DNA of 64,000 nt. It comes from Microvirga thermotolerans (GTDB lineage Bacteria > Pseudomonadota > Alphaproteobacteria > Rhizobiales > Beijerinckiaceae). The notes beneath the pieces are model-generated. The model was given only the letters and a program-made list of their open reading frames with translations, was not told the DNA's origin and made no database searches. The stretch lies in NCBI RefSeq assembly GCF_009363855.1, contig NZ_CP045423.1, forward strand, positions 2,944,001 to 3,008,000. Reading direction: 5' to 3'. Of this stretch, positions 23,436-26,210 are shown in pieces. Made by a program: the position numbers and the translations under genes. How positions within the stretch are numbered: position 1 is the stretch's first letter; each line of letters opens with the position of its first letter.

Positions 23436-23867
23436 ATGACGAAGAAAAGAGACTTTTCCCAAGCCGTTTCCCTGGACATCGGGGTCGACAAGGTCTGCGA
23501 CCTCATCGCCCGCGTGAAGGCCGTCGACGTCAAGGAAGGCGTGACCGATCCGGATTCCGGCTCCAATCCCATCGACGACGGCAATCTGGATGCCCTCACC
23601 ACCAACCCGGACGACATGACGGAAGAAGAGATCCGAGAGGTGGTGGCGGGGCTCAACGACGACGAGCGCGCCGACCTCATCGCCCTGGTCTATATCGGCC
23701 GCGGCGACATGGAGCCCCAGGAATGGGCGGATGCCGTGCGTCTCGCCCGCGAGCGGGAGGCCTCCAGCGTCCTTTCGACGGCGGACTGGCTGATCGGCAT
23801 CCCCAATCTCGGCGACCTTCTCGACGAGGGGCTGCACCTCCTCGGCCGCAGCTGCGGCGAGGCCTGA
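23436..23867 (+). CDS. DUF3775 protein
   Basis: A 143-residue acidic soluble protein with the DUF3775 motif block (LIALVYIGRGDMEPQEWADAV, about 87-107) and a C-terminal helix pair. The family is common in Alphaproteobacteria and has no assigned role. ATG at 23436 is preferred over a TTG at 23418. It lies 99 bases before the ECF sigma gene, which has its own promoter. Confidence 0.82.
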   Translation: MTKKRDFSQAVSLDIGVDKVCDLIARVKAVDVKEGVTDPDSGSNPIDDGNLDALTTNPDDMTEEEIREVVAGLNDDERADLIALVYIGRGDMEPQEWADAVRLAREREASSVLSTADWLIGIPNLGDLLDEGLHLLGRSCGEA

Positions 23868-23911
23868 TCCGGAATATCCGTCAAGGCGGCGGCTTTTTCC
23901 CGGCCCGGCAT

Positions 23912-23937
23912 GCATCCAGGGAGCGTGCCCTCGTGTA
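23912..23937 (+). promoter_or_regulatory. ECF promoter candidate of the sigma gene
   Basis: GCATCC at 23912-23917, 14 bases, CGTGTA at 23932-23937. The same two hexamers with the same spacing occur before the fasciclin gene (25542-25567), which supports self-control by this sigma factor. RNA would start near 23944, so translation must begin downstream, at 23967. Confidence 0.6.
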
Positions 23938-23966
23938 TAGAAGGCACGTTCGAACGGAGCATTGGC

Positions 23967-24533
23967 GTGAAAGCAGCGCTCGGGAGCGGCGCCTTCCCGG
24001 CCCTCGACCTGAACGACGCCCTCGGCCTCTGCGCCAGGGGCGACCGTGCGGCCCTGCGCGCGATCTACGACCGCGAGGCGTCGCGGATGCTCGGCGTCGC
24101 CATGCGCCTTCTGCGCAGGCGCGCCTTGGCGGAGGAGGTCGTGCACGATACCTTCGTGCAGGTCTGGCAGAAGGCGGGAAGCTTCGACCCCGGCCGGGGC
24201 GACGGGCGCACCTGGCTCTACGCGATCCTGCGCAACCGGGCGCTGAACATCCTGCGCGGGGAATCCCGCACCGAATACGTGGACGACTTCGAGCCCATGA
24301 ACCTCGCGAGCGAAGAGGAGGGTGTGGAGGCCGCCCTGCTCCGCCTGTCGGATGCGGGGCAGCTGCGGCGCTGCCTCGAGCGGCTGGAGCCCGCGCGCCG
24401 TCAGGCCGTCGCGCTGGCCTATCTCCACGGCTTGAGCCATGGCGAACTCGCCGGGCGCCTCGGGGTCCCGCTCGGAACGGTCAAGTCCTGGATCAGGCGT
24501 TCCCTCCTGGCCCTTCGCGAGTGCATGGCATGA
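23967..24533 (+). CDS. ECF sigma factor, SigK-like
   Basis: A 188-residue extracytoplasmic-function sigma factor: region 2 (RAIYDREASRMLGVAMRLL, then ALAEEVVHDTFVQVWQKAGSF, about 21-70) and region 4 (AYLHGLSHGELAGRLGVPLGTVKSWIRRSL) with its helix-turn-helix. The GTG at 23967 follows GGAGC and fits the promoter; the ATG at 23910 lies upstream of the probable transcript start. The gene overlaps the anti-sigma gene by ATGA. Together with the RskA-like partner and fasciclin target it resembles mycobacterial SigK-RskA. Confidence 0.93.
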   Translation: MKAALGSGAFPALDLNDALGLCARGDRAALRAIYDREASRMLGVAMRLLRRRALAEEVVHDTFVQVWQKAGSFDPGRGDGRTWLYAILRNRALNILRGESRTEYVDDFEPMNLASEEEGVEAALLRLSDAGQLRRCLERLEPARRQAVALAYLHGLSHGELAGRLGVPLGTVKSWIRRSLLALRECMA

Positions 24534-25243
24534 CCCGCGACGACCTGGACCGCCTCGCCGCCGAATATGTCCTCGGGCTTCTCGAAGGCGAGGAACGCGC
24601 CGAGGCCGAACGCCGGCTGGCGGAGGATCGCGGCTTCCCCGCCATGGTGGAGACCTGGCGGCGACGGTTCGCGGAGCTCGACGAGACGGCGCCGCAGCTG
24701 CCTCCGGACGAGGGCCTGTGGCGACGCATCGACGCCGCCATCGCCGGGCCCGCCCCGCGCGCCGCAGTGCAGCCCGTCCGCGCGGAGCCCCGGCTCCGGC
24801 TGTGGGACAACCTGTTCTTCTGGCGCGGCCTCGGGCTGGCGGGGGCCTTCGCCGCCCTGCTGCTCGCCCTCGGGCTCGCATACACGCTCTCGCGGACCTC
24901 GCGGCAGCCGGTCATGATCGCCGTGCTGCTGAACGATTCCAACCAGCCGGGCGCGGTGCTCAGCACCTATGCGGACGGGCACGCGGAACTCGTGCCGCTC
25001 GGGGACATGACGATTCCGCACAATCACTCGATCCAGATCTGGACCTTCCCGGATCCCAAGGGCGCACCGGTCTCGGTCGGGGTCATCAGCGTGCCGCGCA
25101 GCACCCGGCTCGACATGGACAAGATGCCCCGGCTGCATTCCGACCAGCTCTTCGCCATCTCGGTCGAGCCCCTGAACGGCTCGCCCACGGGACAGCCGAC
25201 CGGCCCGGTGGTGATGAAGGGAACCGCCTCGACGGCCCTTTGA
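24530..25243 (+). CDS. RskA-like transmembrane anti-sigma factor
   Basis: A 237-residue anti-sigma factor. The N-terminal domain (LDRLAAEYVLGLLEGEERAEAERRL, about 5-30) is the zinc-less sigma-binding fold of RskA; one membrane helix lies at about 96-118 (GLAGAFAALLLALGLAYTL); the outer domain matches the RskA C-terminal fold. It holds the ECF sigma at the membrane until a signal, probably by proteolysis, frees it. The ATGA overlap with the sigma gene ensures balanced synthesis. The signal is unknown. Confidence 0.9.
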   Translation: MTRDDLDRLAAEYVLGLLEGEERAEAERRLAEDRGFPAMVETWRRRFAELDETAPQLPPDEGLWRRIDAAIAGPAPRAAVQPVRAEPRLRLWDNLFFWRGLGLAGAFAALLLALGLAYTLSRTSRQPVMIAVLLNDSNQPGAVLSTYADGHAELVPLGDMTIPHNHSIQIWTFPDPKGAPVSVGVISVPRSTRLDMDKMPRLHSDQLFAISVEPLNGSPTGQPTGPVVMKGTASTAL

Positions 25244-25311
25244 GAGCGCCGCGGCGCCGCAATTGCGACACGGATGGCGTCGAGACTCGCCCGCGATTCA
25301 TGGAGCGTGAC

Positions 25312-25509
25312 ATGACTTCCCATTCCCCCTCGCCTTCTCCGGTCGATGCGGAAGCATCCGCAAAGCCGGACGCGGAAACCGCGCGTCCCGAGCCTGTGCA
25401 GGCCCCCGAGCGTACCGTGAATGACGCCGCCGGCGCCGCCGACGACGAGCGCGCGCGGATGGACCGCACCGCCCGCTACCTGCAGGGCCCCACCGCGTTC
25501 ACCGCCTGA
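25312..25509 (+). CDS. Small acidic disordered protein
   Basis: A 65-residue peptide rich in Pro, Ala, Glu and Asp (MTSHSPSPSPVDAEAS onward), without hydrophobic segments. The ATG at 25312 has GGAGCG at good spacing; an ATG at 25300 is the alternative. It lies between the anti-sigma and fasciclin genes on the same strand. No family recognised; it may be part of the sigma cluster. Confidence 0.5.
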   Translation: MTSHSPSPSPVDAEASAKPDAETARPEPVQAPERTVNDAAGAADDERARMDRTARYLQGPTAFTA

Positions 25510-25541
25510 GCGGCGCTTCACGAAGACGTGAAACGCCGCCC

Positions 25542-25567
25542 GCATCCGCCGCAGGGCACGGCGTGTA
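25542..25567 (+). promoter_or_regulatory. ECF promoter candidate of the fasciclin gene
   Basis: GCATCC (25542-25547), 14 bases, CGTGTA (25562-25567), matching the element before the sigma gene in both hexamers and spacing. The predicted leader of about 70 bases holds a CCCCGGC/GCCGGGG hairpin at 25594-25613. Confidence 0.6.
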
Positions 25568-25593
25568 GATCCCCTCGAAGGTCAGCCTTCGCT

Positions 25594-25617
25594 CCCCGGC
25601 CTTTCTGCCGGGGTTCT
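25594..25617 (+). terminator. Hairpin in the fasciclin leader
   Basis: CCCCGGC, loop CTTTCT, GCCGGGG, then TTCTC. A terminator-like stem with a weak T-tract. It may end the upstream transcript or act as an attenuator or a 5' stabiliser. Confidence 0.4.
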
Positions 25618-25643
25618 CATGTCAACATTGAGGGATCGAACCC

Positions 25644-26210
25644 ATGAACATCCGCATTGCCTGCCTCGGTGCCGCCCTCGCGATCGCCGCACCGGCCGTT
25701 GCACTGACCGTTCCCGCCATTGCGCAGGACATGAAGACGGTCGGCGGCGCGGCGATGTATCCGTCGAAGACCATCGTCGAGAACGCCGCGAACTCGAAGG
25801 ACCACACGACCCTCGTGGCGGCCGTGAAGGCGGCGGGCCTCGTCGACACGCTGCAGGGCAAGGGTCCCTTCACCGTCTTCGCGCCCACCAACGCCGCCTT
25901 CGCGAAGCTGCCCGCCGGCACCGTCGACACGCTGCTGAAGCCCGAGAACAAGGGTTCGCTCACCGGCGTCCTCACCTACCACGTCGTGGCCGGGAAGGTC
26001 ACCGCGGAGGACCTCGTGAAGAGGATCAAGGATGGCGGCGGCAAGGCCACCCTGAAGACCGTCCAGGGCGAGACGCTCACCGCCACCATGGCGGGCAAGG
26101 GCGTCGACATCATGGACAGGAAGGGCCAGACCGCGCGGGTCACGATTCCCGACGTGATGCAGTCGAACGGCGTGATCCACGTGGTGGACACGGTTCTGCT
26201 GCCGGGCTGA
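25644..26210 (+). CDS. Exported fasciclin-domain protein
   Basis: A 188-residue protein with a signal peptide ([20 protein letters not shown], cut near AIAQ) and one FAS1 domain with the H1 and H2 boxes: [16 protein letters not shown] and [13 protein letters not shown], plus YHVVAGK in the middle. FAS1 proteins mediate adhesion; S. meliloti Nex18 and mycobacterial MPT70/83 are relatives. ATG at 25644 follows GAGGGATCGAA. The promoter-like element before it matches that of the ECF sigma gene, so it is probably the main target of that sigma factor. Confidence 0.93.

Follow-up and report, generated by a model that had tools for sequence, protein, structure and literature searches.

A SigK-RskA-type locus of Microvirga thermotolerans with a fasciclin gene and a shared putative promoter element

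Among the described systems in which an extracytoplasmic function (ECF) sigma factor is connected with a fasciclin gene, the closest is the mpt83-sigK-rskA cassette, reported from actinobacteria and Yersinia together with a conserved SigK site; the Yersinia pair was tested (PMC7509140). According to the same report, a pair of SigK cysteines, shared by 94% of ECF18 members and 56% of ECF19 members, bears on RskA binding and activity. In the alphaproteobacterium Azospirillum, a fasciclin gene is under RpoE-ChrR control (as cited in PMC10949492), the anti-sigma factor ChrR being zinc-dependent (PMC7406223); in Rhodobacter, the fasciclin gene RSP_1409 is among those rising under photooxidative stress (PMC7074977), and fdp is repressed by Prr (PMC7561615). 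In this work, we analysed a 64-kb stretch of DNA from Microvirga thermotolerans (64,000 nucleotides, hereafter the window, from a host genome of 3,823,049 bases in a single contig), in which genes for an ECF sigma factor, an RskA-type anti-sigma factor and a fasciclin protein lie together, and one sequence element precedes both the sigma and the fasciclin gene. No description of such a cassette in Microvirga was found in the literature searched, with subscription journals mostly outside that search. Judged from sequence comparison, SigK-RskA-type control of the fasciclin gene through this shared promoter element is very probable.

The adjacency of the three genes, claimed in a preliminary description of this DNA, is borne out by their coordinates and Pfam domains (Table 1); together with a small open reading frame (ORF), they lie on the same strand with short gaps, and the fasciclin and RskA_C matches are each unique in the host genome. 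The sigma factor displays the ECF architecture, with regions 2 and 4 both present, and its closest solved structure is that of Mycobacterium tuberculosis SigK (4nqw), with E-values of 2.8e-23 from the single sequence and 1.8e-34 from alignment A1, versus 1.2e-26 for RpoE (2q1z) with the same alignment. In the alignment, its C136 and C186 coincide with cysteines of 4nqw (equivalent to C133/C183), and both SigK cysteines were found in 222 of 228 RskA-paired sigma factors. The anti-sigma factor scored 100.2 bits against the NCBIfam model NF052375 (cut-off, 100) and, read by eye, contains a hydrophobic stretch at about residues 98-120; it has no cysteines, and therefore no cysteine-based zinc motif. 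By-eye comparison alone likens its segment LAAEYVLGLL...GEERAEAERRL to the AS19-1 motifs HTLAGAYALDAL / LDDERAAFERHL (PMC7406223). The fasciclin protein consists of a single FAS1 domain with a Sec-type signal peptide and, lacking a lipobox cysteine, would have no MPT83-type lipid anchor (both features read by eye); solved relatives include TGFBI 7asg (E-value 9.6e-44), 1w7d (9.2e-36) and MPT70 1nyo (6.1e-18).

Compared with the mpt83-sigK-rskA cassette (PMC7509140), the locus presents the same three gene families, a SigK-type site before the fasciclin gene (present here as a sequence element), the two sigma cysteines, and an RskA whose C-terminal part is extracytoplasmic. It differs in its gene order (sigma-rskA-fasciclin), in the absence of a lipobox from the fasciclin protein, in a second copy of the element before the sigma gene, and in the placement of its sigma factor, which belongs to a clade linked to a different partner gene, DUF4394. 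The resemblance to Azospirillum lies in an ECF sigma/anti-sigma pair that would control a fasciclin gene in an alphaproteobacterium (PMC10949492), whereas the anti-sigma factor is of the RskA type in the window and the zinc-dependent ChrR in Azospirillum (PMC7406223).

Table 1. Coordinates, within the window, of the genes and predicted elements of the locus
Feature	Position	Strand	Evidence or remark
Sigma-gene promoter (predicted): -35 TGCATCC, 16-bp spacer, -10 core TGTAT	23911..23938	+	exact match
ECF sigma factor, SigK type, 188 amino acids, GTG start	23967..24533	+	Pfam Sigma70_r2 and r4_2
RskA-type membrane anti-sigma factor, 237 amino acids	24530..25243	+	RskA_C 79.9 bits, cut-off 29.4; 4-base overlap with sigma gene
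Small acidic ORF, 69 amino acids, C-terminus YLxGPTAFTA	25300..25509	+	between rskA and fasciclin promoter
Fasciclin-gene promoter (predicted): CGCATCC, 16-bp spacer, -10 core TGTA	25541..25567	+	exact match
Fasciclin mRNA leader, predicted fold with Shine-Dalgarno GAGGGA in closing stem (tentative)	25568..25643	+	z -2.52
Fasciclin-domain protein, 188 amino acids	25644..26210	+	Pfam Fasciclin 126.7 bits, cut-off 22

The preliminary description had also reported an identical pair, GCATCC-N14-CGTGTA, before the sigma and the fasciclin gene, and both copies were confirmed, at 23912-23937 and 25542-25567. A whole-genome search recovered the exact form at these two promoters alone, with 0.17 copies expected on both strands under a first-order Markov model of the window composition and no matches in the reversed control; the motif is thus not frequent by chance, and a chance origin of the exact pair was ruled out. 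Only this pair is exceptional, since a search of the window that tolerates up to two mismatches gives 8 matches versus 4.4 expected, a number reached by 8 of 100 shuffles. The relaxed form GCATCC-N14-SGKGTA has three genome matches (1.1 expected), namely the two promoters and one at genome position 1560515, which is probably coding, since its spacer is nearly unchanged across many genomes. This form is non-specific, with at least one match in 47 of 61 genomes, with or without a sigma orthologue, and seven in one genome lacking the sigma orthologue (G021); therefore, genome-wide, it is position that carries meaning. Within Microvirga the conserved frame is mostly TGCATCC-N14-SGKGTA, i.e., a -35 of (T/C)GCATCC separated by 16 bp from a -10 core of (T/G)GTA, and the window element rewritten in the frame of its relatives reads TGCATCC-N16-TGTA. 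Accordingly, the earlier framing as two hexamers stood as regards the exact pair and failed as regards the hexamer boundaries: the conserved part comprises TGCATCC, the 16-bp spacer and a GTA core, and CGTGTA as a fixed -10 hexamer was rejected, the relatives having SGKGTA. The -35 of mycobacterial SigK is CCATCC.

Of the 37 Microvirga genomes, 15 carry an orthologue of the sigma factor at a threshold of E < 1e-70, the window genome counted. Across these 15, the pattern GC(A/G)TCC-N14-NG(G/T)GTA precedes every sigma gene (15/15), every linked fasciclin gene (14/14) and every divergent DUF4394 gene (11/11); spacers of N12 and N13 were also permitted in the search, and the N14 length proved constant with differing spacer letters. 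The element stands 55 to 78 bases ahead of the sigma starts, one of the 15 carrying GCGTCC. In G032, where the fasciclin gene is divergent and upstream of sigma, it retains its own copy. DUF4394 was detected in 11 of the 37 genomes, always at the sigma locus, and was not found in the window genome (G000) by a search that recovered it in 15 of 61 genomes. None of 17 hand-chosen unlinked fasciclin genes has GCATCC at N14-18 before NGTA, near-variants being CCATCC at L330 and ACATCC at L322, and such genes are not supported as hidden members of the regulon. Letter pairs common to the sigma and fasciclin upstream regions showed nothing consistent outside Microvirga. Altogether, the SigK-RskA-fasciclin reading first offered for this locus, with its shared element, is well supported. 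As a separate observation, the sigma frame of M. aerophila (G018; L046/L090) is interrupted by an in-frame TAG and a linked fasciclin gene is missing, the cassette possibly decaying; the elements before its sigma and DUF4394 genes match GCATCC-N14-CGTGTA exactly.

Beyond the genus, named-genome relatives were the best 80 of 538, chosen by likeness to the window sigma; one of them (L113) yielded no sigma-rskA pair. DUF4394 lies within 3 kb of 66 of the resulting 79 pairs, upstream and divergent in 64, and a linked fasciclin gene accompanies six Microvirga pairs plus, as a doubtful fragment of 29 amino acids, Agrobacterium L155. Among these loci (L085-L164), those with DUF4394 beside sigma include one titled cyanobacterial (L137) and one titled betaproteobacterial (L158). 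In an even sample of the phylum, RskA_C was present in 125 of 398 genomes; 140 loci were examined, four of them without a pair, and among the 136 sigma-rskA pairs a fasciclin gene lies within 3 kb in 44 (window included), DUF4394 in eight, and both in none. Fasciclin genes of any kind occur in just 33 of 142 genomes of the class. The literature searched yielded no mention of DUF4394, whose protein is apparently exported.

Two promoter types were distinguished. Among the best 80 of 538 relatives, GCATCC-N16-NGTA lies within the 330 bp preceding 41 of 60 DUF4394-linked sigma genes and those of all six Microvirga loci with both partners; in loci selected by RskA_C, it stands before 5 of 11 DUF4394-linked sigma genes and 7 of 34 downstream fasciclin genes, and the reversed control gave no match in the upstream regions of any locus group. 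The fasciclin genes of the f192 loci (L250, L253, L265, L266, L274 and L281), from another class of the same phylum, are all preceded by GCATCC and a CGTA-containing -10, at N17 in four and N16 in two; these loci differ from the window in this spacer, in having fasciclin first, and in their separate sigma clade. TGCATCC-N16-CGTA precedes the fasciclin gene of f37 loci L289, L291 and L298. As a sequence, the window element is close to that preceding fasciclin in non-alphaproteobacterial fasciclin-sigma-RskA cassettes. The alphaproteobacterial f24 and f47 loci (e.g., L054 and L192) share the order sigma-rskA-fasciclin with the window, and the fasciclin protein of G059 is 66% identical to that of the window; in contrast, the G059 sigma factor is just 38% identical, most of these fasciclin genes follow TGAAAC-N-CCGT, and helix residue 170 is N, being G in the window. 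Sigma factors of GCATCC loci mostly have recognition helices of the PLGTxKSW type, those of TGAAAC loci of the PLNTxRTW type. Residue 170 is G in 46/46 GCATCC and N in 22/23 TGAAAC rows of the sigma tree, and likewise G in 30/31 and N in 21/22 loci picked by RskA_C alone; the named loci are not independent in this respect, because they were picked with a peptide pattern containing that G. On average, one of two independent pairs agrees and the other shows no difference; with only two pairs, a sign test cannot reach significance, therefore we treat the helix link as a hypothesis, and the data weakly suggest that the recognition helix may track the -35 type.

The sigma tree comprised 101 rows: fasciclin-linked rows were taken minus long-branch ones (12 long-branch sigma factors were barred), DUF4394 rows were hand-chosen, a random draw supplied 14 of the 20 rows that have neither gene, and L155 was entered as DUF4394-only. 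The window falls in a 42-row clade (100/99) of 23 DUF4394 rows, 10 fasciclin-linked rows, all from Microvirga, and 9 with neither gene. The new result, for the sequences sampled, is a window sigma factor in a clade with DUF4394 as its usual partner, where a linked fasciclin gene appears in Microvirga alone. A single clade of all 58 fasciclin-linked sigma rows was rejected (p-AU 2.9e-51), this group having been named after the trees were seen, and the 10 Microvirga rows held together as a clade were not rejected (p-AU 0.143). The fasciclin tree is weakly resolved, with an unsettled bootstrap and one row on a very long branch; it unites the 12 Microvirga rows and the unlinked L322 and L332 in a group of weak support (88/90). 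The sigma/anti-sigma pair and its promoter look deeply conserved, and the addition of fasciclin to a DUF4394-type sigma branch in Microvirga, a regain, is the most likely history, a direction of change that we infer from these trees. The choice between deep conservation and convergence originally posed for this locus has both for an answer: the sigma/anti-sigma pair recurs across Pseudomonadota, as does an element of the form TGCATCC-N16/17-NGTA, and the fasciclin link does not come by simple inheritance from the mycobacterial arrangement, because the window sigma belongs to a DUF4394-linked clade that is fasciclin-linked, in our sample, only in Microvirga. For the same reason, and because this kind of cassette has already been reported for actinobacteria and Yersinia, the surprise of finding the circuit in an alphaproteobacterium is smaller than was suggested, and different in kind.

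Several observations weigh against the proposed circuit or its history. With one sequence, RpoE 2q1z is almost as near to the window sigma as SigK (E-value 3.8e-22), and two narrow NCBIfam models (213.6 and 200.3 bits, both under their own cut-offs) outscore the SigK model NF007228, where the sigma factor reaches 136.9 bits, under the cut-off of 226, so it is best termed SigK-like and not a member of the narrow SigK subfamily. Moreover, neither promoter type, as simple patterns, appears in 115 of 228 sigma-rskA loci, and among the RskA_C-selected loci GCATCC-N16-NGTA precedes the sigma gene in only 7 of 91 with neither partner and 1 of 34 with a downstream fasciclin gene. One Microvirga genome (G016) keeps the fasciclin gene and the small ORF without a sigma orthologue, its element having one mismatch (ACATCC). 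The nearest neighbours of the DUF4394 clade (L177, L172 and the f192 loci) are fasciclin-linked, and one of the relatives, G057 (L315), holds sigma, rskA, fasciclin and DUF4394 in a single same-strand array. The fasciclin gene of L315 is preceded by GCTGAAAC...CCCGTCC, of the other promoter type.

From the fasciclin-linked neighbours and G057 it follows that fasciclin, DUF4394 and sigma-rskA may once have formed a single ancestral regulon, its fasciclin link then being lost repeatedly, in most lineages, and kept in Microvirga. The poor resolution of the fasciclin tree also fits such vertical retention, the chief alternative, which we nonetheless regard as unlikely: it needs several separate losses, since linked fasciclin genes occur within the 42-row clade only in Microvirga rows, fasciclin undergoes 11 changes over the whole sigma tree, and the 79 nearest pairs show it only in the six Microvirga loci and the doubtful L155 fragment. 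As for the element itself, its -10 part is degenerate across relatives, as might be expected of a site for some other regulator; its fixed spacing, its arrangement as a -35 and a -10 some 30 bp ahead of the sigma start, its position before genes of varying order and strand, the lack of a consensus copy at the 17 unlinked fasciclin genes checked, and the association of element type with helix residue 170 make it very improbable that the window sigma does not read it as a promoter. It is hardly credible, either, that fasciclin is simply cotranscribed from the sigma promoter, the second copy being a relic; the common strand and short gaps would permit this, but that copy is kept before all linked Microvirga fasciclin genes and follows the gene where it is divergent, as in G032. 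Control of fasciclin by the window sigma through the shared element is thus the reading we retain. On a broader scale, we tentatively envisage that SigK-type circuits swap outputs, that Microvirga captured fasciclin behind a promoter copy in a DUF4394-driving branch, and that residues G170/S174 versus N170/T174 set the -35 (GCATCC or TGAAAC), a joint reading that we consider possible rather than probable.

The leader between the fasciclin promoter and start codon may add a further level of regulation. Its predicted fold was equalled by 2 of 200 shuffles, and over 14 aligned leaders, from which L047 and L048 were excluded as unlike, 96.9% of the cells of the Shine-Dalgarno stem are paired, with weak to modest covariation (a score reached by 9 of 500 shuffles, changes on both sides occurring in two cells). 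Folded singly, L047 (z -2.47) and L048 (z -1.11) differ in strength, L047 being without the same stem; the only Rfam match, RF01668, scored 24.3, below its gathering score of 37. Translational control by this leader is possible on the basis of the modelled fold. The small ORF had no NCBIfam match, no Pfam match above cut-off, and no match among plasmid records. A similar C-terminus was found in the Microvirga loci with a downstream fasciclin gene except L048/L103, and also in L322; in L035-L045, L085-L089 and L322, the ORF with this conserved YLxGPTAF(T/S)A, or close variants, directly precedes the fasciclin promoter. Upstream of the cassette, a DUF3775 gene (window 23436-23867) recurs in L035-L045 but not in L046-L048, which makes 11 of the 14 further Microvirga loci that carry the sigma gene. 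The sigma-rskA locus is plasmid-borne in L103 (Microvirga sp. VF16 plasmid pMVF16-4) and in L145 (an Agrobacterium vitis plasmid); in L103 the element occurs a third time, upstream of a divergent ORF resembling, by eye, a FAD-dependent monooxygenase.

In the circuit we propose, RskA would hold the ECF sigma factor at the inner membrane until an envelope or redox signal frees it, probably through the sigma cysteine pair and RskA processing. The freed sigma would then transcribe its own operon (sigma, rskA and probably the small ORF) and, from the second promoter copy, the gene of the secreted fasciclin, presumably an adhesion-type surface protein; in most sigma-bearing Microvirga relatives, a third copy would drive the divergent DUF4394 gene that the window genome lacks. 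The SigK-RskA module, so far familiar chiefly in mycobacteria, thus has many relatives in Pseudomonadota, whose outputs alternate between fasciclin and DUF4394 while the GCATCC promoter recurs. This places DUF4394 in a regulatory setting and gives it a role that can be tested, and a two-residue hypothesis becomes available for the choice of -35 in one group of ECF sigma factors. If outputs are indeed swapped, DUF4394 would correspond in function to MPT83, and translation of fasciclin may be under additional control by its leader.

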